A stretch of DNA of 64,000 bases from Daphnia pulex (lineage: Eukaryota > Arthropoda > Branchiopoda > Diplostraca > Daphniidae), in the NCBI RefSeq assembly GCF_021134715.1, contig NC_060019.1:372001-436000 (forward strand). The letters run 5' to 3'. Positions 13,216 to 62,300 of the stretch are shown here, one piece after another (within the stretch, counting starts at the first letter, position 1; the number at the start of each line of letters is the position of its first letter). The notes under the pieces are model-generated. The model did not search any database, was not told the DNA's origin, and saw only the letters and a program-made list of their open reading frames with translations. The translations under genes and the position numbers were made by a program.

Positions 13216-13224
13216 TATAGGAAG

Positions 13225-16622: not shown

Positions 16623-16639
16623 GTAAGCAAGTAATTGCT

Positions 16640-38900: not shown

Positions 38901-39043
38901 GATGGTGTTGAAACGGACGCATCTGCTAACGGAGTAGAAGAAACTTGATTATGCACAGCTGAAGAAGGGGTTCGTTGGAAAAAATGAAACAAGTTTGTCT
39001 TTTGAACTGGTGTCTTGCTCACTGATTTACGATTGCGATTCAT
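35912..39043 (-). CDS. FAN1: Fanconi-associated nuclease 1
   Basis: Seven minus-strand exons (39043-37958, 37899-37589, 37525-37168, 37113-36917, 36857-36311, 36243-36129, 36063-35912) encode 921 residues. FAN1 is a structure-specific 5' nuclease and exonuclease in interstrand crosslink repair in the nucleus. A UBZ4 zinc finger is present (Cys68, Cys71, His83, Cys88; [20 protein letters not shown]), then a helical SAP/TPR-like middle and the C-terminal VRR-NUC domain with GFPDLTIWN and [12 protein letters not shown], giving the D...ExK catalytic residues. The N-terminus has [12 protein letters not shown], close to a PCNA-interacting (PIP) box. A basic tail after the nuclease ([14 protein letters not shown]) is an extension. 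Its head-to-head neighbour is the CDYL-like gene, 612 bp away. Confidence 0.93.
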
Positions 39044-39655
39044 TTTTTACATTCAGTGTTCCAACACTTGTCATGGAAAATTTTCTCCAAACAACTTTTC
39101 TCGCGCGTGTTTGTTTATATTTTGAAAATGCTGCGGGGCGCCGACATTTTGTCGTATTCTACGTTGCCAGTTCATCAAAAAATATCACGAATTAAAAAAA
39201 TTAAAGAAAATACCAAAAATAGTTGATTGTAAAGTTGAAAATCAATTGAAACTTTTATTTTAAAAAATATTATTTGTCTCATTGTTGATAAAAAATGCAA
39301 TATGGACGACATTCAAGCCCAGTCGTGATTCACTCTCTCTCTCAGTCACATCACATGTGTTTCAAACCTTTCAATCAGCAGACGAATAGGGGCATGGTTA
39401 GAACTACATGACGTCACGTTGTCGATTTGTGCAGTAAAAAGTGAAATCGTCGTCTTCTCTTCCCTTCTTTTTCTGAAAAAGTTTTTCACTGATTCTGTCT
39501 ATAAATAAGCTTTGCCACGAATGTATAGATAAATTACCTACTCCTGTTTAAGACATTGTATAAATTGAACTGATTGTGGAGGGAAGTTGCTGAGTGGCGC
39601 GTAAACTGGTCCCGGAAAAGGGAAAAGCACATAGGCGACGTAGGTCTGCAGAAGC
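39044..39655. promoter_or_regulatory. Head-to-head promoter region of FAN1 and the CDYL-like gene
   Basis: The 612 bp between two divergent start codons must hold both promoters. A TATAAATA at 39500-39507 on the plus strand precedes the CDYL-like start by about 155 bp and could be a TATA element. No gene is seen in the interval. Confidence 0.5.
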
Positions 39656-42600
39656 ATGTCTTCAGATGCAAGTTCAAAGTGAGTAGTTTGCAACTTTGCA
39701 CGTTCTGAGAGATTTATTGAATTGTTAACTTAATTGTTAATCAATTTTCATTTATGCTTGTTGGCTTACTTTAATGTAATTTTAACCATTTTGATTTCAT
39801 TTTTGTTCAAGGTCAGCAGCTGCTAGACCTTCATCTACCTCGAAAGATTCAGAGTCTTATCAAAGTAGCAGCAGTGGCAATGAAAGTAACACCCAACGAC
39901 ATGATTTCCAAAGGATAGGTAACAGTACAACCTATTCACCAACCCAGCACTCCACCATAGCAAACTCGGATAAAATCATGAGAACCCCAATCAATCCTGT
40001 TCCAGGAACAAGTCAAACACTAAATGATGGGAAGTCTGTAAATAAACCTTTTGGCCAACGGGCAAAGAAATCTTTCCCTCAGCCAAAGAGGTTCAAAATC
40101 CCGCAGCCAGTTCTTGGAAAAGATCCCAATCACCCAGAGATTGAAGTGGTTGAATATGTTGAGAAAGTAAAACCAATTCTAGAACCTCAACAAGTTTCAA
40201 ACTATGTTACCTCTCCTATTTCATCGAAGGAATTGCACCTTGATATTCCACAGCATTCCATTAAGATAGAAGTGAGTAACCTTTAGCTTTACACTAAATG
40301 TCGGGAATAATCTAATGTATTTGTTCATTTAAGGTAATCGCTGCTGACCAGATCTCTGGAGGTGAAGAACCTCAACAGACACCCTCAATCAAGGCATCCC
40401 CCGTACCTGAATCTGAGCAAAATAATGCATCACCTGTACATACACCTGATCAATCCGTTTTCAATCATCCATGCCCTGCACAGAGCCCCGATCAAGTGAC
40501 AGAAATCAAGCCATCGCCATTGTATACATCTTATAGAGAAACATCGCCTACGACGCAACCATGTACTGCAGAGCCATCAGGCGCAAAGATGTTAAGTGAC
40601 GAAGAAATGAACAGAACGGTGACTTCCACAACATCTTTGTTTACTGGTGGTGGTTCACTCATGGACGAAGAGGACAAGAAATCCCTATTAGCCTCGATGA
40701 AACAAGCCTATACATCAGAGTTGAACCAATCCGAAAAAATGCAGGGAAGTGAGAGTGACGCCAGTCTCAATGATTCCGTTACTATGCCTCAGTTGTTCAA
40801 ATCACCTAACTCGGGTTATGAAACAGACAAGAGCCGTCCTCCCCCAGATCTACTTTTTGAAGACTCATTCGATGAAGAACTGGTTACTTTGGCAAATAAA
40901 ACGCTCTTCGGTTCTTCAGATTCCAAGACGGATTTTGGATTGGATGGTCAAGACCAAGAGGAAGTTCAAACCAGCGAAGAGTTGACAACAACCTCCACTG
41001 ATGTTGCTATTGATCTTTCTCACTTGACCAGTTTAAACAAACCTGTGAGCCCGAAACCAATTCCTGATCTGCAAGACATCCATCATCCGCCTACTCCCGC
41101 CCTTACTCCGCTCAATCCTCTAACCGATGATTTGGAAGCTGCGATGGCCAAGCTGCATGGTGAATCTTTAAATGAAGAACCCGAGGAGGAAAAAAGGCCC
41201 CTGTCAAGCATGACGAATATCATAGTGACGAAAATAGTGGGTCATGGACGTTCAGGCCATCGACATAAAATAGTCAAAGAACATTCGGAATCCAGCCGCA
41301 CGGAGAGCGGTAAAGGTAATGCCTCTAGTACTCTGTCAGATTTAGAATATCACCCGGATTCAGATGAACAAGAAGCGAAAGATAAATTCGAAGAAAGAAA
41401 ACCGTCCGTGAAGCCGTACAAGTTTCATAAAATCGGCCCCAAGAGTAAAATGGGACCGTTGGCTGTTCACAAACCACTCAAATTGAACAATGTAGATGAG
41501 GCATCTGTAGAAGGCGGAACGGAGATCACCGAAGCAAACTTTGAAACAAAATTCAAACCCAAGTCAACACCTACACCCAGGTCACTTTCTCGTCATTCCA
41601 GAGAAGTGGAAAAGCTCTGCGAGGACGAGATGGTGCAGAATATGTTACGGGACATCGAGGAACGTGGACTAAACAAAAGACGAATTTCTGCAATTACCTA
41701 CAAGGAGTTCCAGTCTAATGGTTCAGATAAAGAAGTGCGAGCTCCTCGCCGTGGCAAACGCGCCAAAAAGGATGACTCTAGTATTGATTATGAGTTGACA
41801 CCCCCAAGGAAGAAGAAGATGTCACGAACAACTTCGACTCCTGTTGTGGATTCATCCCCACAAGATCAAGCGCTACAGCAATGGGAACCAATTCTCGTAT
41901 GTATTCAATTTCCATATATTTAATGAGCCTAAACTCAATTGTGTTTTTTTTTTCGATTAATAGAATTCAACCAATGAAGACAAAGTGGTTTACGTTCCTC
42001 GTAAACTGGCCAATCCTGCTGATAGCTCAGTAATCGTTCGCCGACGAACTTTTTCCTCAGACTCCAGCGCTGACGGGAATCAGAACAACAAACGGAAGAC
42101 TCTACATTCTCTAGATGGTGGTTAATTGCTTAACATTTTCAATCAAAAGGAAATTTCGAATAATTTGTATTTTAGTTTCTACAGGAGTTCAACGTTCCCT
42201 CTTCATGTTGGATGATCATTCTTACACATCTGTCAAAAGTTCACATGAGCTGGGATCCGCCGGTACATGTTCTAACTTTTCATTCGGTAAAATCATATTA
42301 TAATGGCTCGTTTTTGTTTTATTTTTGTAGACGATTTAGTGTCCAAACTGAGCGCCAAATGTCAGGAGGTTCATATCAGTTGTAGAGATCACCTGCTTTG
42401 TATAAAACTCTGCCCCAGGACATCTATATTACGCAACAGTCTAAATTCCAATGTAATGTCAAATAATTTAGTTATGCAATGCGATTTAATCCAAAATTCT
42501 TTTGTAATAATCCCCCTAGATTTTGAAAGAGCTGTCCATGGTGTTGCGAAAGCTAAAAATGGAAACATCAATCCATGTGGTCTTAATCACCTCATCTGGA

Positions 42601-44597
42601 CCGGATTTCTGCAACGGAATCGACTTTCCTTCCCTTATCCACGAGAATATGGCTCAAAGGCTGGAATCAGCCATGACCATCGTGAGTAACCTCCAGTAAG
42701 TAGAGCTACAAATAATGCTTGTCTATGCCAGAGTTGCAATCATTCTTTCTATTTCAATAACAGGGAGTTTATTACGGAACTGGCCAACTGTGACAAACTG
42801 CTGATTGGAGGCCTGGTGGGATCCGTCATGGGCTTGGGTGTTGCTTTGCTCCCTTACCTGAATGCAGTGTACGCTTGTGATAAAACCTCATTTTGTTTGC
42901 CGTATGTCAAACTCGGACAAAGCTACGAAGGTGGCCTATCGCTGACTCTTCCATTGGTGTCCAGGAATTTGGTAAATTTGACTTTTAAGTGGAATGGTTT
43001 GACAATTGTTTATAATCGTTTATTTCTCAAATTGCAGGAAAACTTGCTGTTCTGTGAAGGGCGACGTCTCACGGCCACGCAGGCTAAAGATTGTGGCTTG
43101 ATACAAGACGTCTTTTTGCCGGATAATTTCGAAAAAGAAGTCGTGATCCGCGCCTGTAAAATCGCATCCGAATTTACCCAGGTATGGTTCGGTTTTACTT
43201 TTATGAGTTTTATGGCTTGCAGACGCCTAGATAGGCTGGCCCTGAATAGTGGAGCTCTTCGACGTGAGTTTGCGTTCGATTTTCAATGGTACACACGCTG
43301 CCTCGTCGGCACAGACAGTAAGGGTAGACTGAAAAAGTGTCGGCTGTGATTGCTCCACAACTCGCTCGCAGACGACATCGTTTTAACTAGAAAGTAGGAA
43401 AGGAATTACTCTCATCAGTATCGAGGGGCTTAACACTTGGAATGGGAGACTTACGGGTTTACATGTATAGGATGAAGTGGTAGTAGTCGGACTTGTATTC
43501 TCGTCGCCCGTCACTGAAGATTGCTGCCACGTGTGATTGCTAGGGCATTTGCAAAGAACGCGGGTACTCGGAAACTGTGACGTAGTCTGAGCTTGTGACG
43601 ATCCTATTGGAAAGGATTTTGCGCTTTTAACAATGTGATTGGAGAATATTTGGGTCGTTACCGTTTATTCTGATGTTGACTGCCGATTGATTAGGTGCGC
43701 ATGTTTCGATCCCTTTCATGGAAGCGCAAAACTGTCAATTACCCGGCCGGAAAAGAATTTTAAATTTCATTTCGATTTAGTGACAATTACGAATGGGGCT
43801 TACTTTCATTTGCGCCCGATTATTTAGTGGAAGGGAATACGCTGGGCCCTTAATGACTCGAACGAGCGATGTCACATTGCTGACGGTCACATCGTCGGGT
43901 CCTGTCCAATCGGCTGGGCAGTCGACTCCCTCGGGGCATCGACAATAGCGATTGAGAATGGACGGAATCCAATATCTCTTTTGGAGTATGCTACAAACAG
44001 TGTTTGCAGTTGCGCAGTTTGGAAGGTCACGCTCGCTCCTTATCTGCACTCGGGAAATTGGACCGACCGTCAAGCCAAGCAGATCTCTTTTTTGTTTTGT
44101 TTACGGCAGGCGACACTTAACAATATCTTTTAAAGGGATTCAAACAAACGAAAAAAGGTTGCGAGGCTTACTTGTAAAGGATATTGGGTAATAAGGTCAT
44201 TTTCCGAGCTGGAACAACTGGCGAAAGGCGCAATCAAGAGTAGAATGACACAGAGTTGACGTGGAGCCATCATTCCACTGGTGGGTCCTGAGCGTATTCT
44301 GGAGGCTAACTGCGATTGCCTAACTAAACTGTGTTAGTGGGTGGCGACGGTCTAGTAGTGGTGGTGTGACGTCACTCGAATGCTCTCATTTCCCACCGAA
44401 ACTAATCTTAACCAAATTAATTCTATTTCTAGAGCTCGCTGGCCGGCAAGAGAATGAGTCAGGCTTCACTCCGCCGTGACCTTCCTGACGTCCTAAAAGA
44501 AGAATCGCAGCTGTTACGGCAAACTTGGATTTCCGACGACTTCCAGCGACGAGCCAAGCAATTATACGCCAACGGAGATTTGCTGTCGTCGTTGTAG
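39656..44597 (+). CDS. CDYL-like protein with crotonase-fold C-terminus (copy A)
   Basis: Ten exons (39656-39678, 39812-40271, 40334-41896, 41964-42117, 42185-42262, 42331-42452, 42520-42695, 42764-42971, 43038-43181, 44433-44597) encode 1,030 residues in consistent phase. The first 690 or so residues are polar, Ser/Pro/Glu-rich, with a basic nuclear-signal-like APRRGKRAKKDD and PPRKKKMSR. The last 300 residues form an enoyl-CoA hydratase-like domain: VVLITSSGPDFCNGIDF, LLIGGLVGSVMGLGVALLPY, SFCLPYVKLGQSYEGGLSLT, EGRRLTATQAKDCGLIQDVF. This pattern is closest to the chromodomain-Y-like (CDYL) co-repressor family. No chromodomain is visible, so the name is provisional. The last intron is 1.25 kb and holds a nested antisense gene. 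A poly(A) signal lies at 45578-45583. Confidence 0.85.
43210..44273 (-). CDS. Nested cysteine-rich secreted protein gene (antisense in CDYL-like intron)
   Basis: Minus-strand exon candidates are 44273-44172 (signal peptide, MMAPRQLCVILLLIAPFASC), about 44090-43804 (NCATANTVCSILQKRYWIPS, then NRYCRCPEGVDCP), 43731-43662 (FCASMKGIETCAPNQ), 43574-43455 (TRVLCKCPSNHTW) and 43386-43210 (CRLRASCGAITADTF, YPYCLCRRGSVC, ending GVCKP). Exons 2 and 5 repeat one pattern: two spaced Cys, then Y-C-x-C, then a GPAY segment. Boundaries 2/3 and 4/5 agree in phase. Boundaries 1/2 and 3/4 do not, and exon 2 lacks a pyrimidine tract, so the gene is either mis-modelled or slightly damaged. I do not recognise the family. 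The corresponding intron of the duplicate CDYL gene lacks these exons. Confidence 0.55.
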
Positions 44598-45817
44598 AGT
44601 ACCGCCTACGAGCAGCAATCCATCCAGTCGTCCCCAAATCCAAGTTAGATCCTTATGTTTCTACTTTTCTATCTCTCTCTCTCGTCACCTTGTCTAGTTT
44701 AAGTTACAGTTACCAAAGGAACTTTATCGGCGTGATTGTTTGGCCTTTTTTTTTCTTTTTTAAAAGATTCTCTCGCGTTCTTGTTTGTTTCATGCGTAAG
44801 GATTTTTTGGCGGGTATGTAACGGTTTCACTCCAAGTGACGTTATCACAAAGTGCGCGACGTGTATTCGCCCGTGTTTTTCCTTATGGCGAGTCGATCTG
44901 TCTTTTGTTTCGTTGAAGTTGTTTTTTTCACGCGCGGGTTGTGGGGGGGGGGGGACTGAAGTGTCGGCTCGCCGTTAATCCTTCACGCAATTTGTTTCTC
45001 TCCCTTTATTTATGTACTTGTAGCCCCAATCAAGATTTAATTTACCTTTCACACCAGAAACCGAGTGCCTGTTCTACTCCCATCCAGTTTAATTGACAGA
45101 CGGTTAATTCCCTCCTTTGCTTTGTAATTGCGGTTGGTTTAAAAACATCCATCATTCAATCCCGAAAAAAATTATGTAATTCTACTTTGCTTTTATGACC
45201 CATCCATTCGGTGTTGGCTGAGTTGTAATGGGACTTTTTTTTTCGGTTAATATCAATACAGTTAACATAGAACAATACCTTCTAACATGTATTTTTATAG
45301 TTATTTTTTCCTTCCGGTGAAAAAGTTTGTGTTGTTTTATTGGTAACAATCAGAAAGTCATGATGCGATTTTAAACCGGCTGAACTTTCTCCGTTTTCGT
45401 TCCGTTTCATTTTCATTTAATTGGTGACGTATTCGCGATCTTTCTGTGAATGGTGGCCAACTAACTGGAAACGTAATTTGAAAGGGTAGTTCTCAGAAAT
45501 TTTCCGATTTCTTTGTCAATGGTGCAATTGTGTTTGACAAGGTGTCATTCGCCAACCAATTTCTTTCGTTGTTTCCTAATAAAGTTGCGCTGTGTATAGG
45601 GAATACGGTCTCGGTGGGATGGTCGCTGCTTCTGTCGTGGTGTTATAGCTTTCGTATGATAATGTACAAAAAATGATTATGATGACGAATTTTACGACGG
45701 CACTTGTGTCGATTGTACTTTTTGTTTTTGCCATCTTTTACTGATGTCTAAGCACATAGGAAGAGCAGAGAAGAATTTTTCTATGCGGTTTCTATTCCAT
45801 AGGGCATGATTAATGGG
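44598..45817 (+). other. 3' untranslated region and flank of CDYL-like copy A
   Basis: About 1 kb of 3' untranslated sequence runs to the AATAAA at 45578-45583. It is shared with 52453-53560 downstream of the chimeric gene with many indels, which shows that the duplication includes this region. A long G run lies near 44942. Open frames here are not protein-like. Confidence 0.65.
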
Positions 45818-47266
45818 AAGTTTGTCAGAAAAGAAGAGAAGAGTCTCATTTCCTCGTGGACTCGAATGAGAGCTTTTTTTACACCAGGGTGATCGATTTC
45901 CGGCGTAAAATCAACTCGATATTGCAACAACTTTATGTCCGGTCTTTTTGTCAAATGGAAATAGTTGGATTATAGTAATTCAATCTGCGATCCTTCAGAC
46001 TGTATTTTTGAAATGTTAAATCTAGAGATAATCTTTTACTTAAATGTTATTCCAGTAGATTGTGCCGGCTTTATTGAATCGGGCGTCAGTGGGGCGAGTA
46101 ACAAGATCATGGCTAAGAATTTGATGGAAAAACTTTTCGGTTGTATTGCCCAAGGATTGGTTGTTTTTTGTACGGCTGAGCCCACGGCTGGGTCCAGCAT
46201 TTTCTCAACTTTCACCTGAAGCCTCTCCTCCTAAGATTTCCTCTTGTCGTATCTCTTGAATTACCTGTTTGAATAGGTTAATTAGGGAGCTATTTTTGGT
46301 AGGAAATTTTGATTTATTAAAAGAACATCAAAGCAACGTTGAACTAGGCCTCTTTTCATTTGCATTCACGGTCAGGTTCTATTTTATTTTCATTTAGAAA
46401 ATACTGCTTTTTTGAAATCCCAAATCGCTCGTGAAAGACATACTCATTAAAAATATATTGACGACTCTTTGAAAAGATAAAATACTGATGACATAATGTC
46501 CACATTAACACGTGACCCATTTTCAAATTTTCCTTCCGGCCGTCTTGTATTTGTACATCTCTCGAACGCTTTGTTCCACGTTTTTTGACGTCCGACATTC
46601 TCACGTAAAAGTTAACGACAGGTGTTTGTTCCTTGCGCAACTTGCGATCACTAAAACAGAACTACGGAGAAAATTTTTCTGAGGTTTTTTTATTGCGTCA
46701 TCGGCATTTTGTCCATCGGGTAAGAAGGCCTATTTTTTACGACCATCGGCCTTCTCCAAGTACGTCAAAAGCGTCCGACCTTAGATGAGCGAGCGTGGCT
46801 GATTAAAACAAATATTATGCACACTTGGATAGTCCACATTTTCAATCGTATTTTTTTCGGGATTGGTGGGCATAGATAATATTCATAGATTCGGGATTGG
46901 TGGGCAATTTGCTTATTTTCGAATTATGAACTCTCCATTCTTCTACGTTAAATCTCTTGATTTTCTGTCGCTTGTTTTTTAGACTTTGGCCGTATTACTT
47001 TAAATAATTTCCCGAGTCGGTAAAGACTATGATGGTCTTTCCTAAAAGTCTAGACATGTTAAAATTAAATCCTGATCTGTGGAAACGTAAGAACCTTATT
47101 TTCTTGGCAAACAAAAGAAATGGGAATACAAAACAAGCCAAAAAAAACAATTAACCTGAGATGAGGTCCCGTTGTGAGCTCTATCCTTTTCTTGCGGGCG
47201 TCTTGGTAGATGTTGCTGCAGCTCGCGGGAACTTCTCTTGACACCACGCCTTTCTGCGTCTGACAT
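45818..47266 (-). pseudogene. Truncated Piwi 5' region
   Basis: Minus-strand sequence equivalent to the first three exons of the complete Piwi at 53940-58364. Exon 1 is intact (47266-47156, starting [20 protein letters not shown]). An additional MSDVKKRGTKRSRD first-exon-like frame starts at 46598. Exon 2 (46264-46066) has a TGA at 46207-46205 and a GC instead of GT donor. Exon 3 is incomplete, with insertions and a deletion, and the sequence breaks at about 45818 into the CDYL 3' flank. PAZ, MID and PIWI domains are absent, so no functional Argonaute can be made. Confidence 0.85.
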
Positions 47267-47794
47267 GGTCGATTCTTTTTTTTCAAAACTGATAGATTTA
47301 TTGTCTGCAGCGTCAAATTCAACTTGCTCAAGTTTGACGCTGAATTCATCTTGGCCAACTTCTGTTTAGGCTCCGACTTTTGCCCATTTCCGCGTTGTTT
47401 TTAGCTGTAAAATTTCTGGCACCTCGGATGAAATGTAATATCACGTCATTTTTCTTTTCCTATAATAACAATTTCATTTACTGCTGTTGTGTCTGGGCTG
47501 TAAAATGAAGTGTAGGGCATTGCGTGGTTCATCCCAATTTTATTATTATAGGGGACCAAATGTGGTCCACACAAATCAGTAGACCTACTTCTTGACAGGC
47601 CAACAAGTATTTTAAAACATCACACACTCCCCTTTTTCCCACTGTATAGAAATCGGAAACTTTTCATAAAAGGGTCAGCCACCCCGAGCTCAATCTTTCT
47701 TCACTTACAACGACCCCCATCGACTCTTTTCGGCATCTTATTTTATGCAGGCATGAGAATAAAGAAGCGATTAAAATAATGCAAGAAAGCAAAC
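47267..47794. other. Spacer shared with the upstream flank of Piwi copy 1
   Basis: 47395-47765 matches 58490-58860, both lying upstream of a Piwi exon 1, and probably includes the Piwi promoter. No gene is present. The match ends where coiled-coil family sequence begins. Confidence 0.65.
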
Positions 47795-47905
47795 AAAGAA
47801 GCGTCTAATGACATTAAGGGAATGATTACGGCCGCCAAAGACGATATGTTAAATATAGAAAAATGTGAGCAAACGGGAACAATTGGCAAATGTCAACAAA
47901 TAGCT
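47795..47905 (+). pseudogene. 3' remnant of a coiled-coil family gene (copy 7)
   Basis: Starts AGCGTCTAATGACATTAAGG and matches the last 90 coding bases of copy 0 (108-196), then family 3' untranslated sequence follows to about 48090. Nothing of the gene upstream remains; the flank is Piwi spacer. Confidence 0.6.
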
Positions 47906-48186
47906 TCGTTTGAATATCGACCCCGGAATTGACCAAGACGCTTAACACAAACCTGTAACTATTTAAGATATTCACTTAGGCTTAGTTACGGTTTATGTCT
48001 CTCTGTGCGTTCAACCCCATTTTTATTATTCTAAAACTTTTTTTGAGAATAAGATAAAATCATTTCTGCTCTAACATGAATTTTAATTCTCTCATCTGCA
48101 ACGATTTTGCGTTTCGTTTGCGGGGTGGGGGAGGGGGGTGCTAAGCCTTTTTCTGCGAAATAGTGCAGCTGGTTGCTCGTTTCTTG

Positions 48187-48358
48187 AAGCGATTCGTGGA
48201 ATGCAGTACGGAAACAAACGTTGATGAAAATAGACATGCTGATTCATAGGAATTGTCGCGAAGATGATAAGTATACAGTAGATTCAAACAGTCAAGCTTA
48301 AACATCGTTACCGAAAGGTTGTCTGTTTATCCTGAGGAGAATCGGCTTGGAAAATATT
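48187..48358 (+). repeat. Family 5' block driving the chimeric gene
   Basis: Begins AAGCGATTCGTGGAATGCAG and continues to the ATG at 48359, matching the 5' blocks of the family members in the first 17 kb. The chimeric gene therefore appears to carry the promoter and 5' leader of the coiled-coil family, not those of the CDYL-like gene. Confidence 0.6.
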
Positions 48359-51300
48359 ATGGCGTCTTCTGATCTTATCAACGGTAAGTTAAAACTTTGT
48401 TCTCCCTTTTTTCTTTTAATTTCGTCTATAGTTAAATGCCTTTTATTTTATTTTTATATTGACAGTTGCAGCCGACGCCAATCAAGAAATTCTGGATAGA
48501 ATTAAAAAAGCGGAAGGCGACGAGGCGGAATTATTAAAACAAGTTTTTGATTCTTTTGATTCGCTGAGAAAGCTGATAAGCCAAGTGATTGAAACTTTCA
48601 AGTCGAGTAAGGATGGTGAAAAGGAAACCAATGTTACGGACATGATTATGGACAGGATTAAGAAGGCAATAGTGGAAAAGATAAAGAGCAAAGTGGAAGC
48701 CAAAAAGAAAAAGGAAGAAGAGTTCCAGCGGGCGATTGAAGAAGCGCAGAGAAATTTAAGCGAAAAAAGAAAAGACTTGGATGACCAAAGCAAACCCAAG
48801 TTGCGCGTTTGGCCGTCATTTTTCGGCCTATTTGAATCCAATGAAGAATCTGTTGAGAATGCCCGGCAAACGTTAGAAGAAGCTGAAAAAAGATTGAAGA
48901 AAATCAAAGAAGAAGCAGAGGACAGTGACAAAAGGTTGAACGAAGAAATTCAAAGGTGGCAAGCCATTCCAATTGATGAGCTGGAAGAGTCCCTTCAACT
49001 GACGTTGGAATCCACTAGGAAGAAATCTTTCCCTCAGCCAAAGAGGTTCAAAATCCCGCAGCCATTTCTTGGAAAAGATCCCAATCACCCAGAGATTGAA
49101 GTGGTTGAATATGTTGAGAAAGTAAAACCAATTCAAGAACCTCAACAAGTTTCAAACTATGTTACCTCTCCTATTTCATCGAAGGAATTGCACCTTGATA
49201 TTCCACAGCATTCCATTAAGATAGAAGTGAGTAACCTTTAGCTATAAACTAAATGTTGGAAATAATCTAAAGTATTTGTTCATTTAAGGTAATCGCTGCT
49301 GACCAGATCTCTGGAGGTGAAGAACCTCAACAGAAATCTTTCCCTCAGCCAAAGAGGTTCAAAATCCCGCAGCCAGTTCTTGGAAAAGATCCCAATCACC
49401 CAGAGATTGAAGTTGTTGATTATGTTGAGAAAGGAAAATCAATTCTAGAACCTCAACAAGTTTCAAACTATGTTACCTCTCCTATTTCATCGAAGGAATT
49501 GCACCTTGATATTCCACAGCATTCCATTAAGATAGAAGTGAGTAACCTTTAGCTATAAACTAAATGTTGGAAATAATCTAAAGTATTTGTTCATTTAAGG
49601 TAATCGCTGCTGAACAGATCTCTGGAGGTGAAGAACCTCAACAGACACCCTCAATCAAGGCATCCCCCGTACCTGAATCTGAGCAAAATAATGCATCACC
49701 TGTACATACACCTGATCAATCCGTTTTCAATCATCCATGCCCTGCACAGAGCCCTGATCAAGTGACAGAAATCAAGCCATCGCCATTGTATACATCTTAT
49801 AGAGAAACATCGCCTCCGATGCAGCCATGTATTGCAGGGCCATCAGGTGCAAAGATCTTAAGCGGCGAAGAAATGAACAGAACGGTGACTTCCACAACAT
49901 CTTTGTTTACTGGTGGTGGTTCACCCATGGACGAGAAGTACAAGAGATCGCAATTAGCCTTGATGAAACAAGCCTGTACATCAGAGTTGAACCAGTCCAA
50001 AAAAACACAAGTAAATGAGAGTGATGACAGTTTCAGTGACTCTAGCTGCTCTAGTATGCCTCTTTTGTTCCTAACGCAGGAAATTGATAGTGACGCCAGT
50101 TTCGATGATTCCCTTACTATGCCTCAGTTGTTCAAATCACCCAACTCGGTTGATGAAACAGACAAGAGCCGTCCTTCGCCAGATCTACATTTTGAAGACT
50201 CATTCGATGAAGAACTAGATTCTTTGGCAAAGAAAACATGCTTCGTTTCTTGCAATTCAGAGACGGATTTTGGATTGGATACTCCCGCTTTGACTCCGCT
50301 TAATCCTCTAACGGATGAACTGGAAGCTGCAATGGCCAAGCGGCATGGTGAATCTTTGAATGAAGAACCCGAGGAGGATAAAATGCCTCCGTCAAGCATG
50401 ACGAAAATAGTCAAAGAGCAATCGACAGCCAGCCGCGTAGGGGAGATCAACGAAGCAAGCTTTGAGGCAAAATCTAAACCCAAGTCAACACCTATCCCCA
50501 GGGCACTTTCTCGTCATTCCAGAGAAATGAAAGAGCTCTTCAAGGACCAGACGGTGCAGAATATGTTACGGGACATCGAGGAACGCGGTTTAAACAAAAG
50601 ACCAATATCTGCAATTAACTACAAAGAGTTACATTCTAATGGTTCAGATAAAGAAGTGCGAGCTCCTCGCCGTGGCAAACGCGCCAAAAAGGATGACTCT
50701 AGTATTGATTATGAGTTGACACCCCCAAGGAAGAAGAAGATGTCACGAACAACTTCGACTCCTGTTGTGGATTCATCCCCACAAGATCAAGCGCTACAGC
50801 AATGGGAACCAATTCTCGTATGTATTCAATTTCCATTTATTTAAAGAGTCTAAACTCAATTGTTTTGTTTTTTCGATCAAATAGAATTCAACCAATGAAG
50901 ACAAAGTGGTTTACGTTCCTCGTAAACTGGCCAATCCTGCTGATAGCTCGGTAATCGTTGGCCGACAAACTATTTCCTCAGACCCCAGCGCCGACGGCAT
51001 TCAGAACAACAACCCGAAGACTCCACATTCTCTAGAAGGTTGTTAGTTGTTTTTCTAGAGAAAGGAAATTTTAAATAGTTTGTATTTTTATATCTACAGG
51101 AGCGCAGCGTTCCCCGTTGAGCGATCATTCTTACGCAGCTGTCGAAAGTTCGCATGAGCTGGGATCCGCCGGTATATACTAACACTTTTCATTTAGTCAA
51201 ATCATATTTTAATGCTCCGTTTCTGTTTTTAATTTTGTAGACGATTTAGTGTCCAAACTGAGCGCCAAATGTCAGGAGATTCAAATCAGTTGTAGAGATC

Positions 51301-52452
51301 AGCTGCTTTGTATAAAACTCTGCCCCAGGACATCTATTTTACGCAACAGTCTGAATTCTAATGTAATGTCAACACATTTAGTTGTGCAATGCAATGTAAT
51401 CAAAAATTATTTTGTAATAATCCCCCTAGATTTTGAAAGAGCTGTCCTTGTTGTTGCGAAAGCTGAAAATGGAGACATCAATTCACGTGGTCTTAATCAC
51501 CTCATCTGGACCGGATTTCTGCAACGGAATCGACTTTCCTTCCCTTATCCACGAGAATATGGCTCAAAGGCTGGAATCAGCCATGACCATCGTGAGTAAC
51601 CTCCAGTAAGTAGAGCTACAAATTATGCGTGTCTATGCCAGAGTTGCATTTAATTTTTTTTTTTAAATAATTAGGGAGTTTATTACGGAACTGGCCAACT
51701 GTGACAAACTGCTGATTGGAGGCCTGGTGGGATCTGTAATGGGCTTGGGTGTTGCTATGCTCCCTTACCTGGATGCAGTGTACGCTTGTGATAAAACCTC
51801 ATTTTGTTTGCCGTACGTCAAACTCGGACAAAGCTACGAAGGTGGCCTATCGCTGACTCTTCCATTGGTGTCCAGGAATTTGGTAAATTTGACTATAAGT
51901 GGAATTGTTTGACAGTTGTTGGTAATTGTTTATTTCTCAAATTGCAGGTTAAGTTGCTGTTCTGTGAAGGCCGACGTCTCACGGCCACGCAGGCTAAAGA
52001 TTATGGCTTGATACAAGACGTCTGTTTGCCGGATAATTTCGAAAAAGAAGTCGTGCTCCGCGCCTGTAAAATCGCAGCCGAATTTACCCAGGTATGGTTT
52101 ATGTTTTACTCACATGTCACGAGTTTTATGGCTTGCAGACGTAGTTTGAGATTGTAACAATCCTGTTAGAATTTATAGAAATGATTTTGCGCTTTAAACA
52201 ATGTGATTTGAAAGATGTTTGGATTGTTAATCAATGCTCTCATTTCCCAACCGAAACTAAACTTAACCAAATTTATTCTATTTCTAGAGCTCGCTGGACG
52301 GCAAGAGAATGAGTCAGTCTTCACTCCGCCGTGACCTTCCTGACGTCCTAAAAAAAGAATCGCAGCTGTTACGGCGAACTTGGATTTCCGACGACTTCCA
52401 GCGACGAGCCAAGCAATTATACGCCAACGGAGATTTGCTGTCGTCGTTGTAG
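48359..52452 (+). CDS. Chimeric gene: coiled-coil family N-terminus fused to CDYL-like protein (copy B)
   Basis: Eleven exons (48359-48383, 48466-49226, 49289-49537, 49600-50817, 50885-51038, 51100-51171, 51241-51362, 51430-51605, 51675-51882, 51948-52091, 52288-52452) keep one open frame of 1,097 residues. Residues 1-190 are family sequence (MASSDLINVAADANQ, then the charged coiled coil and IPIDELEESLQLTLEST). It lacks the N-terminal signature block and part of the C-terminal block. Within exon 2 the frame crosses at about 49017 into CDYL-like sequence (KKSFPQPKRFKIPQP) and continues to a complete crotonase-like C-terminus. Relative to copy A it lacks the first 145 or so CDYL residues and a block after DFGLD, and has an extra duplicated exon. 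All splice phases agree. Expression is not shown, but nothing in the frame is broken. Confidence 0.8.
49023..49644 (+). repeat. Tandem 311-bp duplication inside the chimeric gene
   Basis: Units 49023-49333 and 49334-49644 each start AAATCTTTCCCTCAGCC and include the end of one exon, the 62-bp intron and the start of the next exon up to CCTCAACAG. The second unit creates an additional in-frame exon of 83 codons (49289-49537). Copy A has a single unit (40064 onward). Confidence 0.9.
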
Positions 52453-53899
52453 AGCACCGCCTACGAGCTGCAATTGATCCAGTCGTCCCCAAATCCAAGT
52501 TAGATCCTTATGTTTCTACTTTTCTATCTCTCTCTCTCTCGTCACCTTGTCTAGTTTAAGTTACAGTTACCAAAGGAACTTTATCGGCGTGATTGTTTGG
52601 CCTTTTTTTTTCTTTTTTAAAAGATTCTCTCGCGTTCTTGTTTGTTTCATGCGTAAGGATTTTTTGGCGGGTATGTAACGGTTTTACTCCAGTGACGTTA
52701 TTAATGTGCGACGTGTATTCGCCCGTTTTTTCCTTATGGCGAATGGATCTGTCGGTTAATGCCCTCCTTTGCTTTGTAAGATTTGCGGTTGTTCAATCCC
52801 GAAAAAAATTATGTAATTCTAATTTGCTTTTATGACCCATCCATTCGGTGTTGGCTGAGTTGTAATGGGACTTTTTTCGGTTAATATCAATACAGTTAAC
52901 ATAGAACAGGATAATCGAATTTTGGTTATTTGAACTTTAGCAGTTTAGAGTTGGACATCTGATGGATTGGTATTTTACTATTTGTCCGGTTTTGTCGTCC
53001 AATTCAAAAAATTTTTTTTAACCTTAAGGGGCGTGATGCGTTGTCTTACCGTCGAATACCTTCTCATGCGTATTCTCAGTTAATTCTTTCCTTCCGGTTT
53101 AAAATTTTGTGTTGTTTTATTGGTAACAATCACGAAGATCATGATGCGATTCTAAACCGGCTGGACTTCGTTTTCGTTCCGTTTCATTTTCATTTAATTG
53201 GTGACGTATTCGCGATCTTTCTGTGAATGGTGGCCAACTAACTGGAAACGTAATTTGAAAGGGTAGTTCTCAGAAATTTTGCGATTTCTTGTTTTGTTTT
53301 GTTAAGGTGTCATTTCCGGAAAAAAGTGACACCTTTTCGCAGACCAATTTCTTTCGTTGTTTCCTAATAAAATTGCGCTGTGCATAGGGAATATGGTCTC
53401 GATAAGATGGTCGAAAATGTACTAATATTGACGCATTTTACGACGGCACTTGTGTCGATTGTACTTTTTGTCTTTGCCATCTTTTGCTGATGTACTAAGC
53501 ACATAGGAAGAACAGAGAAGAATTTTTCTATGCGGTTCTATTCAGTAGGGCATGACTCATGGGAAGGAAAAGGAAGGATGTGTTTATGTTCTGTATAGTA
53601 GCTATAATGATTGTCTCAATTAAAACACCCCTCGTTTCCCCCATAGCAAATAGCAGCTGCCCACCTATTCTGTATCTTTCTTTTGGCTTTTTGGACGGAA
53701 GCGGATCTTTCCTTATTTGACTGCACCGTTGATGGTCCCTCCCCAAACCGGAAATCAGTTAATAGACCCCAAGTAATAGCTTTGAAACTTAAAAAGATAA
53801 AGTAGAGATACACTTTTTCCAACACGTCGCTTTTTTACGCCTCTTTTAGTATTTTGCGCCCCGGACATTAAAATAGAAAACTTTTCAACTCATCTTTTT
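52453..53899 (+). other. 3' untranslated region of the chimeric gene and Piwi 3' flank
   Basis: Matches the 3' region of copy A, with deletions, to the AATAAA at 53366-53371 and on to about 53560. Unique sequence follows. TTTATT at 53900-53905 is an AATAAA on the minus strand, 35 bases past the Piwi stop, so the two genes end convergently. Confidence 0.65.
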
Positions 53900-53939
53900 T
53901 TTATTAAACGAAAGTAATGGAAATGTTTTTGGAAGCATT

Positions 53940-56900
53940 TCATAAGTAATAGGGGTATTTTGCCAAGTTGTCTAGCGGCATCCGCTGAGTTCTCTCGCCA
54001 ATCAAATACGCTAATTTATGGGCGTATTGGATTGGAGCCGGAACTCGTACTGTACCCTGTGTTTAAAATTCTTGACATTAAAAAACAAAATCCCAGTCCA
54101 GTAATAAAACAAAACAAAAATCATACCGGCCAATTGAAGTAGACGTGAGTTAAAGCGTAGGCCAACGATTGGTGAATATCCGGCGTAATGTTGGACGAAT
54201 TATAAATGACGTTGAAATTGATTGGCGAAATCGTACCCTGATTGACTTTCTGCGACACCAGGAAGAAATCGAAGCGTTCGCTGAGCGTCACCGTGTTGTC
54301 CACCACCGTCCCGCACGGTGGATTCCCGAACGCGTCTCTCCTTTTCAAGAAGAAACGAGTGTTGATTTTCTTGCTGACAATCACGAACGAAATGCCGGGA
54401 TCGTAATGGCCCGTTTTCGTAATCATTGCCGCTTTTTTACAAGCTTCCTGTAATCGATTCAAGTATTATTTGAGCGGTTGATTTTTAGTTGGAATTAAAT
54501 AATTAAATACCTTGATGCCACCGAGTTCGATATCGAGGACAGTTTGGATATCCCCGGCTCCAATGCCGTCACGGTAGACGATTATATTTTCTGGTAAAAG
54601 TATTTTGCTTTTATTTTCCACTTGGGCCATGTAATAAGCTCTAAATGGAAAATAATTTCAATTAATCAAACCAAGTTCAAAAGACCAGAAAATAATAATT
54701 TGCGTTTACTTTAACGAGGTGAGCATGTGATGTTGGAAGCTCGGCGAAATCTCTTCGTTGGCCGAGTGGATTTTGACGGACGAATTGTAACGCGTGAAAC
54801 TGTCGTTGGTTGAAGCCACGAACGCCCCAACGGCTTTTCTTTGTGCGGCGTCGTGAAACGTGTCGTAACCAACAATCATCCATGGCTTTTGTGGTTTAAA
54901 TGATTGTAAAATGATTGAGTCTACTATATAGAAGGTTTATATGATGTTTATTACCTTGTTTGGCACTTGCGCTTTCCAAGGTTCAGCTCCCAACTTGCAG
55001 GCAATTTGAGTCATCACTTTTGTAGCTACCGACATTAATTTCCCCTGGTTTCCTTCAATAATTCGACCTGTAATTACCTGAAAGAGAAAATTATTGATGG
55101 AAAATTGGACAGGATAATTTTGTTTTATTAATTATACCTGTGAGGGGATACCCCTTTCGCAAAAGGTGTATTTCTTGATGGCCGAATACGTGTCGGTTCG
55201 ATTGGTTCGCAACACGCACATAACAATATCGTAGTCTCTCTGGGAGACATTGTCACGCATAGCATTGATGTACTCGCTTGTTTGTTCTCTTTCCAGAGCA
55301 ACACTTTTTTAAAAATCAAAATTATTAATTAGTTTTGATTTCTTTTTCAATGGTGGATTTTTAAAATTTACTAGCGAGGTTCCGGCACGTTAAATCCTTG
55401 AGGAAGGCCAACTTGTTGAATCAACTTGACAAAATGTCGTACTTGTTGGTTCATTCTGCTTGGAAGTATGACGATCCATTCCTTAAACTCAGCCGAAACG
55501 GCCATCTTGTTTCCTTTTGAATCAATTCCAAATGATTAACTGCCATTTCACAAATATTTTTGAGAGACTCACTTTGCATATCGCTGCTCCATTCGCCTTC
55601 CCTAATATTGATCCTGCCAGCACCTGTGATTAAAGGTTTGGCTGGTAAAATTCTCGCCTTGCAAGTTACAAGATCGTTTGCAAACTGAAGGCCCCAGCTC
55701 CTCAGCTCTCGTTGAATCTAATTCATTTTGCATTAATAACGACCTAATTTTTTGTTTGAAATTATTTAAAAATTTACTTCCGGGCTGTTGGTTAACCGGC
55801 GACGGAATTTCAGTAAAGTTTCTACCCTCCTATCAGGTGTGACGCGAGTGATTGTAGAAATAGCCTTCTTCAAATTATTATTATCCCTTTTTAAATTCAA
55901 ACAAATAAAAAAATTAGCGATTTGAATTTTTCAACTTTTTTCAATTGATGGCAAACCTTTGCTCGGCTGAAAGACCCGTCATCCCGCACAACTCTGGGAC
56001 GAGATAGATGGCCTGGGGTTCGATGTTTTGATTGGCACAGCCGTTGATATCACGACGTGATGGTCTCGACACGAGCATCGGCTGGTTCGGAAATCGAATG
56101 TTTTGCTGGTAACGATTCTTGTAATATTCTATGTAACTAATGTCTCTATCTTCTTTCTTCAAATGGAATGTCGAATCGGCTCTGTTGACAAAATCCACGT
56201 CGTCGATCCTGTACGTTTTGTTGTTGTAGCCCGTCATCACGATCTTGCCCACCAGCTCGGCTTTAATTCGTTCCTGTTTTGAAATGTTAGTCTTGATGGA
56301 AAGAGTTACATGCTTAAATATTACTTGTAGGTTATCTGTGTTGGCACGGCGCATTTTGTCCATCACGTCGTAAGCAGTGTCTCTGCGAAGAAATTTATTG
56401 ATGACTTCCACGTTCATAAAATATTCTTGTTCGTGATGGCGAATCGTTGTCAAGTATCCAGGCCAAATTGTTATCGGGTGATTCTAAAAAGATTTAATTT
56501 GCATAATAATTATTTGAGGTAATAATTAACAAGTTTGTTGAATCGCCATTTTACCGGAACGTCTTCCCTGGCTTCTTTGTCGTAAAAATTGCGTCGTATC
56601 ATCACCAAGTTGAGCATCGACATGCAGCGTCGCAGAATTAAATTCGTTACCTAATTAAATAAATCCATTTTTAATTTTGTCATTTGTTTTGCGGCTCCAC
56701 TTGTAGCACTTACGGAAGTGTAAACAGGATCTTCTTTTTGTATTTCGCTGGTTAGCCTTAAAGTAATTCTGACTTCACTGTCGTCCGATTTTCGTTTCGA
56801 AATCAATTCCAGTGGCTGTAGATGTAAAGAAATTTGAGCTACTGTGTTTCTTTTAACGTTTAGGTGTTAAGTTACTTGTGGGAGACGAGTGGTATTGTAG

Positions 56901-58364
56901 AGAAGAGTCCCGTCAAAAATGTATTTCCCAATCATTTGCTCGTGGACTCGAATGAGAGCCTTCTTAACACCAGGGTGATCGATTTCCGGTGTAAAATCAA
57001 CTCGATATTGCAACAACTTCATGTCCGGCCTTTTTGTCAAATGGAAATAGTTGGATTGTACTTCAATCTGCGATCCTTCAGACCCTGTATTTTTGAAATG
57101 TGTTATCTTCTAGCTAGGTTATCTTTCATTCGAACTTTAGTGCAATAGATTGTACCGGCTTTACTGAATCTGGCGTCAGTGGGGCGAGTAACAAGATCAT
57201 GGCTGAGAATTTGATGGAAAAACTTTTCGGTTGTATTGCCCAAAGGCTGGTTGTTTCTTATACGGCTAAGTCCACGGCTAGATCCAGAATTTTCTCCACT
57301 TTCACCTGCAGCCTCTCCACCTCGAACTTCCCCTTGTCGTATCTCCTGAATGATCTGTTTGAATAGGTCATTTAGGGAAAATTTAGTTATTTTGGTAGAA
57401 AATTTTGATTTATTAAAAGAACATCGTTGCAACGTTGAATTACGACTAGTTTCATTTGCATTCACAGTGAGGTTCTATTTCATTTACATTGTTTTTTAAT
57501 AATTCTAAATTTCTCGTGTAAAGGCTTTCTAATTTAAAATGAATTCATGACTCTTTTAAGATAAAATACCGATGTCGTAGTGTTAACACTTGACCCTTTT
57601 TCAAATTCTCCTTCCGGCCGTCTTGGTATCTGCACATCTCTCGGACGCTTCGTTCCACGTTTTCCGACGTCCGACATGTTCACGTAAAAATTTTACAACA
57701 GGTGTTTGCTCGTTGCGCAACTTGTGATCACTAAAAGAGGACTAGGGAGAATCTGAGGCTACAAGAGAAACACTAAAACTACTCAGAAATGGTAGATGGC
57801 CATCTTCACCTTTTCTGAGATATTTGTATTGCGCCATCGGCATTCTGTCCATCGGGGAATTACGATATTACGGCCTGTTTTTATGCCCATTGGCCTTCTT
57901 GAAGTAAAACAGAAGCGCCTTTATTAGATGAGCGTGGCTGATAAAAACAAATATTATGCGCATTGGATAGTCGTATTTTCTTTGTACAGCTGGGATCAAA
58001 ACAAATTGGTGGATAATGTGCTTATTTTCGAATGATTGATTAGAATGATTACGTTAAATCGCTAAGCTTTGACCATTATTACAAACTACTACTACTACAA
58101 ATAATTCCTCAAGTCGGTAAAAACTATGATGGTCTTTCCCCCTACAAGTATCTCAATCTTAAAATTAAATCCTGATCTGTGGAAACGTAAGAACCTTATT
58201 TTCTTGGCAAACAAAAGAATGGGAATAAAATACAAGTAAAAAAAACAATTAACCTGTGATGAGGTCCCGTTGTGAGCTCTATCCTTTTCTTGCGGGCGTC
58301 TTGGTAAATGTTGTTGCAGTTCGCGGGAACTTCTCTTGACACCACGCCTTTCTGCGTCTGACAT
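53940..58364 (-). CDS. piwi: Piwi-subfamily Argonaute, copy 1
   Basis: Sixteen minus-strand exons (58364-58254, 57354-57156, 57084-56876, 56815-56714, 56650-56555, 56483-56325, 56273-55957, 55886-55778, 55717-55573, 55513-55372, 55303-55138, 55077-54955, 54885-54710, 54640-54511, 54447-54127, 54056-53940) encode 873 residues in phase. Piwi proteins bind piRNAs and silence transposons in germline cells. The N-terminus is basic ([16 protein letters not shown]). A PAZ region with YRIDDVDF and [10 protein letters not shown] is followed by MID and PIWI domains. The slicer triad is present: Asp in VGYDTFHD, Asp in VYRDGIGAGD, His in THVYFNWPG, and the C-terminus is YPYYL as usual for the family. 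A likely poly(A) signal is at 53905-53900. Intron 1 contains a second first-exon-like frame. Confidence 0.94.
57537..57677 (-). other. Alternative or decayed first exon inside Piwi intron 1
   Basis: ATG at 57677 opens MSDVGKRGTKRPRDVQIPRR and PEGEFEKGSSVN, resembling the MSD..KRG.KR start of both Piwi proteins. It ends at a stop 47 codons on. A GTCAAG donor after GAAAAAGG would be in phase 2, which does not fit the phase-0 exon 2, so it is more likely an old duplicate of exon 1 than a usable start. A similar frame is kept in the truncated copy (46598). Confidence 0.5.
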
Positions 58365-59386
58365 GGTCGATTCTTTTTTCAAAACTGATGTAGATTTATT
58401 GTCTACAGCGTCAGATTCAACTTGCTGGAATTTGACGCTGAATTGGCCAACTTCTGTTCTCACCAATGTTTAGGCTCCGCCTTTTGACCATTTCCGCGTT
58501 GTGTTTCAGCTGTGACATTTCTGGCACCCCGAATGAAATTTAATATCACGTCGTTTTTCTTTTCCTGTAATAACAATTTACTGCTGCAGTGTCTGGGCTG
58601 TAAAATGAAGTGTATTGGGCATTGCGTGGTTCATCCCAATTTTATTATTGGTGACCAACTGTTGTCCACACAAATCAGTAGGCCTATACTTGACAGGCCA
58701 ACAAGTATTTTAAAACATCACACACTCCCCTTTTTCCCACTGTATAGAAATCGGAAACTTTGCCCTAAAAAGGGTCAGCCACCTTGAGGTCAATCTTTCT
58801 TCACTTACAACGACCCCTCGACTCTGTTCGGCATCTTATTTTATGCATACATGAGAAGAATAAAGAAGCCAAGCCAAGGAAAACCCTTTGATGTGTTACA
58901 CTTTTTAGGAATCGATTCGTTAACCGTTTGAGCTTTAAATAGAATAGGGTTGGCCTTTTCTTTTATTCCAGTCCAAGTCCATTTTGTATATCGGTATTGT
59001 TCGATATTTGTTTCTTATTCAACTATTGTTCACTAAACTATGTCCTTTCCGTTTCCTAAAACGACAATTACTTCCGGAGTTATTGTAATAAAAAGCAAGT
59101 CGAATTTAAAAAGAAATGCCGGTATTTCCTTCCCGGAAATGTTGTTGGTGATTTCACAACCGACCCATCACTCCTTCTATTCAAGCATTTTGAATAGAAT
59201 ATTCTTTTGACCTCTTGAAATAACATTAAATAGATTTGTCCATTTTTGAAATAATTTTTACTTTTCTCTAAAAATTGGCAGTGACATTAGAATGGAAAAC
59301 AAAATGTGTTGAGGTCTTTGTGGTGGGCGACAATATTTAGAGATCGAAATCTATAAAAGATTTCACTTTGAAATGGAGCACGCATT
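58365..59386. other. Intergenic between the two Piwi genes
   Basis: 58490-58860 matches 47395-47765 and probably includes the promoter of Piwi copy 1. The remainder, to the stop of Piwi copy 2, is unique AT-rich sequence without a gene. Confidence 0.6.
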
Positions 59387-62300
59387 TTAAAGGTAATAGG
59401 GGAATTTCGCCAGGACATCTAATGGCTCTCGTTCAATCCTCTCGCCCACCAAATACGCCAACTTGTGAGCGTATTGCATCGGAGCCGGAACTCGTACCGT
59501 TCCCTAAATCAAAATTTCAATTGATTAAAAACCAAGTTGTTGCAATTTCAATTCAAATTACCGGCCAGTTGTAGTAGAGATGGGTTAAACTGTACGCAAA
59601 CATTTGATGGACGTTGGCCGCCAGTCCAGTGCTGTCGAAAATGACGTTGAAATTCGTTGGCGAAACTGTTCCTTGATTGACTTTTTGCGAGACCAAAAAG
59701 AAATCACTTCGCTCCCTGATGGTGACAATATCGTCCACTACCGTCCCACTCGCTGCATTCGATGGATTGTCTCTCGTTCCGGCGAAAAAACGAGTTTTGA
59801 TCGCCTTACTGACAATCACAAATGCAATGCCAGGCTTGTAATCAACTCCTGCCAAACTGGCATTCGCCACTAGTTTACAAGCTTCCTGTAAAACAATTTC
59901 CTTCGTTAAGCATTTACTTTCTTTTCTACTTGTCTGTTTTTAATCTAAATCGTCTACCTGGATGCCTTCGAGTTCGATATCCAGGACAGTTTGGATATCG
60001 CCAGCTCCGACGCCATCACGGTAGACGATAATTTTTTCCGGATAAGAGCCGTTGGCTGTTTGATAGGCCCTGATTATTTGTATAATTTTAGAATAAAATC
60101 CATCCATTGTCTAAAATGCAATTCAAGTAATACTTTAATGATTTGAGCATGTGATCCTTGAAGCTGGGCGAAATGTCCTCATTGGCCGGATGGATTTTCA
60201 CCGACGAATTGTAGCGCGTGTAACTCGTGTTGATTGAAGCCACGAACGCACCGACGGCTTTTCGATTGCGAGCGTCGTGGTAGGTGTCGTATCCTACAAT
60301 CATCCAGGGCTGAAATTTAAAAAAAAATTATTTTAACTGCTATAAGTGTAAATGGCGGATTTGATTTGATTTATTACCCTTTGAAGGTGCGTAACTAGTG
60401 TCCACGGTTCAGCACCTAATTTACATGCGATTTGAGTCATGACTTTGGTAGCCACCGACATTAGTCTGCCTTCGGTTCCCTCAATAATTCGACCTGTAAT
60501 AACCTGAAAGGAGATAAATGTTTATATAAGTCTTGCCTTTAAAAATGAATTCAAAATGTAAATACTTGGGAAGCGATACCCCTATCGCAAAAGGTGTATT
60601 TCTTGATGGCCGAATAAGTGTCGGTCCGATTGGTTCGCAACACGCACATGACGATGTCGTAATATCGGTTGGGGATGTTATCCCGCAAAGCATTGATGTA
60701 ATCACTGGTTCGATCCATGTCCAGTGGAACACTTTTTTAAAATTAAATCAAAATTAGTTTTCATTTAATTTTTTATTTGTGGTTGATTAACTTACTAGTG
60801 AGGTTCCGGCAGGTGAAATCCTTGAGGTTCGCCAACTCTTTTCATCATATTAACAAAGGATCGAACTTGCGAGTTCAATTTAGTCGGATAAACGACGATC
60901 CATTCCGACATCTTGACAGAAACGCACATTTTTCTTTCTGTTCGAAATAAATTGAAATTTAAAAAATTAATTCGAGTTATTTCATAGCAAAATTGAATAA
61001 CTCACTTTGCATTTCACGGCCCCAGTCGCCATCTTTCGTGTTAATTGTATTCGTTCCCGTGAGAAGGAGCGGTGCTTTCAAAGTTCTGGCCGGACATGGA
61101 ACGAGTTGATTGGCGAACTGAAGTCCCCAATTATTTAACTCCCGTTCAATCTATACAACCGTTTTAAATGTTGAATTTTTCGCTATATGCCCATTTTTTT
61201 AAATTCACTAGTAATTATACCTGCGGAGTTTCGGCCAATCGGCGACGGAATTTCATTAAAGTCTCCACCCGTCTGCCCGGCGTGACTCGCGTGATATTCC
61301 CAACGGCCTGCATCATTTTAAAGTTGTTCCTAGAAAATATTTCCAATCAACTTTTTTGTTTCAAAAATAATCAAACAAAATTCAAACCTGTGTTCCTCTG
61401 TTAGTCCCGTCATTCCGCACAATTCCGGAATGAGATAGATCGTGTCATCTCTCATGCTGGCCCCTTGCTGGTTGTCGGGTTTGTTACGTGATGGCCGGGA
61501 CACGAGCAAAAATTGCCGCTCGTCTTTGATGTTCACCTCGTAATGTTTTTGGTAATATTCCTTGTAGGTGATGTCCCGATCCTCTTTGCGCAAGTGGAAC
61601 GTCGACATTGGAGTTTTGTCGAAATCAATGTCGTCGATCCTGTACGTTTTGTCGTTGTACAGCGTCATCACGATTTGGCCTAGTAACTCAGTTTTGACAC
61701 GATTCTAATTCAACAGAAAAAAACTTAAAAATTTGGTAATTAAAGAGACAAGGCTAATAATTCAAATACCATGAAATCATCTCTCCCTATTTGCCGATGA
61801 ATTCGTTCAATCACGTTCATGGCAGTGTCTCTGCGAAGGTATTTGTGAACGATTTCCACGTTCAAAAGATAGTCACGCTCGTGACGTCGAATCGTTGTCA
61901 CATACCCCGGCCAAATGGTAATCGGGTGACCCTATACAAATTCAAAATTAAAATTTTGAAATGGAAAATTAAATTGAATTGATTAGTTGCGAATACCGGA
62001 ACATCTTCTTTAGCTGCTTTGTCGTAATATTTGCGCTTCAACATCACCAAGTTGAGCATCGACATGCAACGCCTCAGGATCAAACACATCACCTGAAAAT
62101 TAAAATTTTGTTAAATGGAAAAGTTAACGCTAATTTTAATTTAAGGGTAGTAACTTACTGAGGTGTATGTAGCATCTTCTTGTTGAAATTCGCCTACTAA
62201 AGCGAATTTAATTTTGACGTCACTCCCGTCAAATTTCCTTTTAGAAATCAATTCCAACGGCTAAAAAAATAAAATCCCAATTTGTTAGCGGCCTGAGAAA

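Follow-up and report, generated by a model that had tools for sequence, protein, structure and literature searches.

A chimeric gene with an intact reading frame at the joint of a tandem segmental duplication in Daphnia pulex

A tandem segmental duplication appears to have placed the 5′ half of a gene for a helical protein in front of a HIPP1/CDYL-like gene. The resulting chimeric gene (gene B, 48359-52452, + strand) is real and has an intact reading frame. Positions refer to the window, the whole stretch of 64,000 nt that was analysed (C3:372001-436000), unless another contig or locus is named; genome searches covered 133,188,837 bases in 13 contigs. We consider it fairly probable that gene B is a protein-coding chimera which arose by tandem duplication, that its frame is under selection, and that it is transcribed from a donor-family promoter to give a HIPP1/CDYL-type protein. 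Judged from its sequence, gene B is probably functional.

Structure of the chimeric gene

Gene B consists of 11 exons with a coding total of 3294 nt, which specify 1097 aa and end in a single terminal stop (Table 1). All ten introns are of the GT-AG type. Exon boundaries of gene B and of the related intact gene A were set by hand, without transcripts, from the reading frame, GT-AG sites and A/B homology. A sequence-only reading had proposed an intact chimeric frame with the joint inside exon 2, preserved splice phases thereafter and a complete crotonase-like C-terminus. Exon-by-exon reading bears out all of these; the in-frame joint is also seen when the letters of both parents are set side by side, and the C-terminus is matched by Pfam family ECH_1. 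The 5′ block said to be common to gene B and the donor family was found as well (48187-48329 versus 1779-1923, 73%, E 9e-14).

Exon 1 and roughly 550 nt at the front of exon 2 derive from the donor family. Donor-family homology stops at 49013, and homology to gene A begins at 49020. Upstream of the joint, 48538-48966 matches donor-family sequence at 2536-2955 (74%, E 8e-72 in a blastn-type self-comparison of the window), far above chance. From 49020 on, blocks that hold exons are 87.5-97.8% identical to gene A, and similarity extends to part of the last intron (75%) and to the 3′ flank (80-85%). At the N-terminus, 194 residues stand in place of the first 93 of gene A; in the protein, these would be mostly charged helices.

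The donor part is shortened: compared with full-length members of the family, it lacks about 100 aa early in exon 2, a further stretch of about 68 aa ahead of the joint, and the C-terminal end. Its closest relative is a truncated piece on contig C10 (86% identity over 48343-48822), which has the same short form and intron, with an exon-intron-exon layout identical to that of the exon 1 region of gene B. The two yield a dN/dS of 0.31 over 122 codons, a value in which much of the divergence may predate the fusion. Pieces of the region upstream of the start codon have counterparts of 68-80% identity at five further places in the window and in loci L022, L023, L024, L025 and L027. Further donor-family 5′ blocks occur at 13116-13217 and 16635-16825, but neither is followed by coding sequence that matches the donor at E 1e-3.

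Table 1. Features of the chimeric gene, its parents and the duplication units (window coordinates).
Feature	Positions	Strand	Evidence or remark
Gene A, intact HIPP1/CDYL-like gene, 10 exons, 1030 aa, introns GT-AG, single terminal stop	39656-44597	+	source type of the 3′ part of gene B
Duplication unit 1; starts within gene A exon 2 and ends at a truncated Piwi gene, on its 5′ side	40065-47768	+	self-blast
Remnant, C-terminal coding end of the upstream donor-family gene, just past the end of unit 1	47786-47870	+	blastn 47798-47870 versus 3270-3343, 80%, E 5e-11
Upstream of the gene B start codon: 3′ region or intergenic sequence of the donor family, then a donor-family 5′ block (putative promoter and 5′ UTR)	47965-48358	+	
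Gene B exon 1, a first exon of donor-family type; ATG preceded by A at -3 and followed by G at +4	48359-48383	+	
Gene B exon 2, chimeric; helical donor-family sequence up to 49013, then filler, and HIPP1/CDYL-like sequence starting at 49020	48466-49226	+	
Fusion joint, about 6 nt of filler matching neither parent	49014-49020	+	side-by-side letters
Duplication unit 2; starts at the gene B joint and ends at a Piwi gene, on its 5′ side	49020-58869	+	self-blast
Gene B exon 3, extra exon, from tandem duplication within gene B	49289-49537	+	49021-49334 versus 49332-49645, 97.8%
Gene B exon 4, long charged HIPP1/CDYL-like region; in-frame indels versus gene A of 69, 147, 51 and 216 nt	49600-50817	+	
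Gene B exon 5	50885-51038	+	exon reading
Gene B exon 6, 6 nt shorter than in gene A	51100-51171	+	
Gene B exon 7, crotonase-like domain begins	51241-51362	+	
Gene B exon 8, crotonase-like domain, with I901	51430-51605	+	
Gene B exon 9, crotonase-like domain, with L950 and E981	51675-51882	+	
Gene B exon 10, crotonase-like domain	51948-52091	+	
Gene B exon 11, C-terminus and stop	52288-52452	+	

Origin by tandem segmental duplication

Gene B is located at the joint between two duplication units, which are separated by about 1.2 kb of donor gene array. The order between the units is the tail of a donor gene (its match may, by eye, start near 47786), the 3′ region of that gene, the upstream block of the next donor gene, exon 1, and exon 2 up to the joint. 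As is characteristic of chimeras formed by tandem duplication, the source gene A lies upstream and the joint coincides with the duplication boundary. Because a stretch of the donor array lies between the units, the fusion is the joint of a tandem duplication, and since the 5′ half of a donor gene precedes unit 2, this unit begins in frame behind it. In this way, the segmental duplication would have made a protein-coding chimeric gene, with transcription starting from a donor-family promoter.

The simplest tandem-duplication model expects a copy of the donor gene after unit 2. Such a copy was looked for on C3 from the chimera (about 422 kb) to 799 kb, and no donor-family match was found there (search counts are lower bounds). 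This result gives no support to a one-step tandem duplication with the donor gene persisting downstream. It would be explained by later loss of the donor gene after unit 2, or by a donor piece that entered as a copy when the duplication took place. Unit 1 may itself have been altered: a homology gap between the units, from 45820 to 45846, suggests that it has lost the body of its Piwi gene.

A later tandem duplication of about 311 bp within gene B added exon 3. The two copies (49021-49334 and 49332-49645) have in common five intron differences from gene A, and this duplication thus came after the separation of genes A and B. They differ from each other by six nonsynonymous changes and one synonymous change, with no difference in the intron, hinting at relaxed constraint in this part of the gene.

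In Drosophila yakuba, chimeras formed by tandem duplication likewise carry the 5′ end of one gene before a partial copy of another at the joint, and a regulatory change is expected (PMC5460883, in excerpt). Unlike those chimeras, gene B has a donor piece between the units, no donor copy was found just downstream, and an exon was gained later. Chimeric genes that arose through horizontal gene transfer (HGT) have been described in arthropods, the youngest being in D. pulex and D. pulicaria (PMC13389597, in excerpt). No bacterial origin is claimed for the donor of gene B. The chimera was made by a known route, and it is the donor which is unusual.

Identity of the HIPP1/CDYL-like part

The best PDB matches of the crotonase domain are human CDY1 (E 4e-26), CDY2 (6e-26) and CDYL (2e-23), followed by ECI2 and other crotonases, and Pfam ECH_1 is matched with E 9e-23 in gene B and 2e-22 in gene A. 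CDYL has an N-terminal chromodomain (PMC6385973, in excerpt), but none was found in A or B: no Chromo family is among their Pfam matches at E <= 1, and none of the 31 matches to PF00385 in a genome scan falls inside the window. The oxyanion residues are I834/L883/E914 in gene A and I901/L950/E981 in gene B, with the spacings of CDYL (49 and 31); the third residue is D in CDYL and E in both Daphnia genes. In the fly, HIPP1 also has a C-terminal crotonase-like domain homologous to CDYL, has no functional chromodomain and carries the oxyanion residues I, L and E. Its printed numbering (732, 780, 812) corresponds to spacings of 48 and 32 (PMC6385973, in excerpt), in contrast to the 49 and 31 that CDYL shares with genes A and B.

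Because no chromodomain was found and the triad is I-L-E, the tail of gene B is best called HIPP1/CDYL-like; for this comparison, the fly residues were taken from the published description. The sequence-only reading had spoken of a CDYL-like, presumed silencing factor. It was right in that the crotonase domain is closest to CDY and CDYL, but the label is loose, with HIPP1 the closer named relative. The term "silencing factor" also needs care, since loss of fly HIPP1 leaves viability and fertility, and also Su(Hw)-dependent repression, unaffected (PMC6385973, PMC6911044, both in excerpt). A literature search found nothing that joins CDYL with Daphnia, or the evolution of chromodomain Y-like crotonases with invertebrates.

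Both domains of fly HIPP1 can dimerise, but their partners differ: CP190 is bound by the N-terminal domain and Su(Hw) by the crotonase domain (PMC6911044, in excerpt). Gene B differs in having donor-family helices in place of such an N-terminal domain. Its crotonase-like domain should retain partner binding of the HIPP1/CDYL class and self-association. The new N-terminus should alter when and where the protein is produced and also its binding partners, because CP190 binding and dimerisation reside in the N-terminal domain of the fly protein. By this analogy, the change in gene B is likely to be one of partner choice.

For the N-terminal two thirds of gene A, no copy was found in the genome beyond gene B and a fragment on C7. 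This fragment of the charged region (C7:6165447-6165719; L036:4863-5507, - strand) lies in an open frame right after a RING-finger exon and is possibly a second chimera. As a third HIPP1/CDYL copy it was considered as an outgroup, but with only about 95 aa and 40-48% identity it is too short to polarise the differences between A and B.

The donor family

Members of the donor family cluster at the left side of the window (2151-3341, 7170-8426, 11474-12482) and occur elsewhere on C3. Contigs C4, C8, C9, C10 and C11 contain further matches; several matches are interrupted by stops, and the counts are lower bounds. Long open frames of 647, 762 and 764 aa are present on C11 and C8. Open frames for a protein kinase and for ankyrin repeats adjoin the donor gene cluster (14507-16381 and L025:452-2197). 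No Pfam or NCBIfam entry matches the family over the cut-off.

A full-length relative of the donor is predicted to fold like the alpha-pore-forming proteins of the ClyA superfamily, a resemblance of the model in fold only. No counterpart was found at the sequence level for YaxA/XaxA, AhlB, SmhB, HBL or Cry6Aa: a search of the PDB with the family profile gave 12 matches at E <= 10, none of them a ClyA-superfamily pore-former. Pfam and NCBIfam likewise gave no link to bacterial pore-formers over their cut-offs, the sub-threshold matches being a mixture of coiled-coil and helical families. Gene B, in contrast to ClyA-superfamily proteins, retains only a shortened piece, and pore activity is not implied for it. 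Its exon 2 is modelled as helical, with a confidence (pLDDT 57) too low to assign a fold to the donor part of gene B itself. The N-terminal part had been taken for an oligomerisation module. A helical character agrees with the model, but the module is unproven: confidence in the model is low, and the parent fold resembles a bundle of the ClyA superfamily. Literature searches found nothing joining Daphnia with xenorhabdolysin, or HGT of ClyA pore-forming toxins with arthropods, and a search for Daphnia, pore-forming and horizontal gene transfer gave no paper whose title or displayed abstract was about such toxins.

As a tentative proposal, on the doubtful side, a protein of the HIPP1/CDYL class may have gained its N-terminus, through the tandem duplication, from an expanded animal family with a ClyA-type fold, and selection may have retained it as a second HIPP1 under different regulation.

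Selection, gene conversion and age

Counted from the second tandem unit onward, genes A and B show 153 differences over 2396 coding positions (6.4%) versus 68 over 458 positions in introns 3-8 (14.9%). An alternative count, begun six columns before this and with all introns taken together, yields 157/2401 coding and 92/637 intron differences. All five coding indels (69, 147, 51, 216 and 6 nt) are multiples of three, compared with 7 of 29 noncoding ones (Fisher p 0.003). If half of the intron change is placed on B, as these expectations assume, an unconstrained gene B should have 7.9 frameshifts (introns 3-8) or 15 (all introns), and none was found; similarly, 178 substitutions would be expected on the B branch alone under neutrality, and 153 were found on A and B together. 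In addition, dN is lower than dS (103/1829 versus 52/562 sites, Fisher p 0.003). These indel and divergence tests make a chance open frame unlikely, with gene conversion as a caveat.

The dN/dS ratio between A and B is 0.60 overall and 0.47 in the crotonase part. The overall value leaves selection unsettled, because a constrained gene A together with a neutral gene B would give it too. Two exons exceed a ratio of 1 (exons 4 and 9 of gene A), and the last exon has no synonymous change at all. A and B share six identical stretches of 112-202 bp, of which four lie within the gene and the other two in its 3′ flank. They point to gene conversion, which may have kept B open passively. Absence of stop codons is a weak test: for 78, 51 and 39 neutral substitutions, P is 0.05, 0.16 and 0.23, respectively.

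One alternative is consequently that gene B is a non-functional duplicate which is still open because it is fairly recent and has at times been overwritten by gene A. The identical runs, the dN/dS values and the no-stop probability, which is not extreme, all fit with this. It does not account for the lack of frameshifts and the coding indels exclusively in threes, nor for a coding divergence less than half that of introns, and the donor half has stayed open even though it is uncorrectable from gene A, which has no such half. We regard the non-functional duplicate as unlikely. Selection on gene B is likely but not proven, and gene conversion with gene A weakens the frame tests. Selection would hold the frame open while occasional conversion keeps patches identical.

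It is more improbable still that gene B is expressed but not as a chimera, with a start inside the HIPP1/CDYL-like part or with the donor exons spliced elsewhere. The 5′ blocks at 13116-13217 and 16635-16825, behind which no matching donor coding sequence was found at E 1e-3, would be compatible with this. However, the joint lies in frame within one exon and follows an intact first exon with canonical splice sites, and the dN/dS of 0.31 to the C10 relative also speaks against it. As to the assembly, tandem similar copies are where assemblies fail, and the joint might be an error of this kind. We hold this to be very improbable. Genes A and B differ by 6-15% and are not one gene counted twice; the window contains no N; the donor piece with exon 1, intron and exon 2 is independently present on C10; the unit boundaries are mutually consistent; and a 241-bp stretch across the joint (48900-49140) is found whole at only one place in the genome. 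A protein-coding chimera remains the preferred reading.

The fusion had been called young, which is true only in a relative sense, given the 14.9% difference from gene A in introns 3-8. Genes of the common ancestor of D. pulex and D. pulicaria are described as having arisen "as recently as 82,000 years ago" (PMC13389597, in excerpt). Set against this figure, an intron divergence of 13-15% indicates that the fusion is probably older than the split of the two species, and it is predicted to occur in both.

Genomic neighbourhood and significance

Two tandem Piwi genes with PAZ and Piwi domains lie next to gene B (54124-56483 and 59556-61704, - strand). The region 45846-47768 beside gene A corresponds by homology to one of these genes, on its 5′ side, and belongs to the same segmental duplication. 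Six AUB/PIWI copies have been counted in D. pulex (PMC2680839, in excerpt). A FAN1-like gene with a FAN1_HTH domain (37952-39046, - strand) is arranged head-to-head with gene A, and the two may have a promoter region in common.

The locus retains in one view both duplication units, the piece that joins them, an exon gained later and the intact parent gene. As all parts are still present, it is directly testable here how a chromatin protein gene captures a promoter and has its N-terminus replaced, and since duplicated Piwi genes adjoin the locus, a possible link to germline silencing can be asked about. If the proposed origin from a family with a ClyA-type fold is true, a chromatin factor would have been built in part from a pore-former-like helical bundle. 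The donor family, which by its predicted fold resembles an animal branch of a class known chiefly from bacterial toxins, may merit more attention than the fusion.
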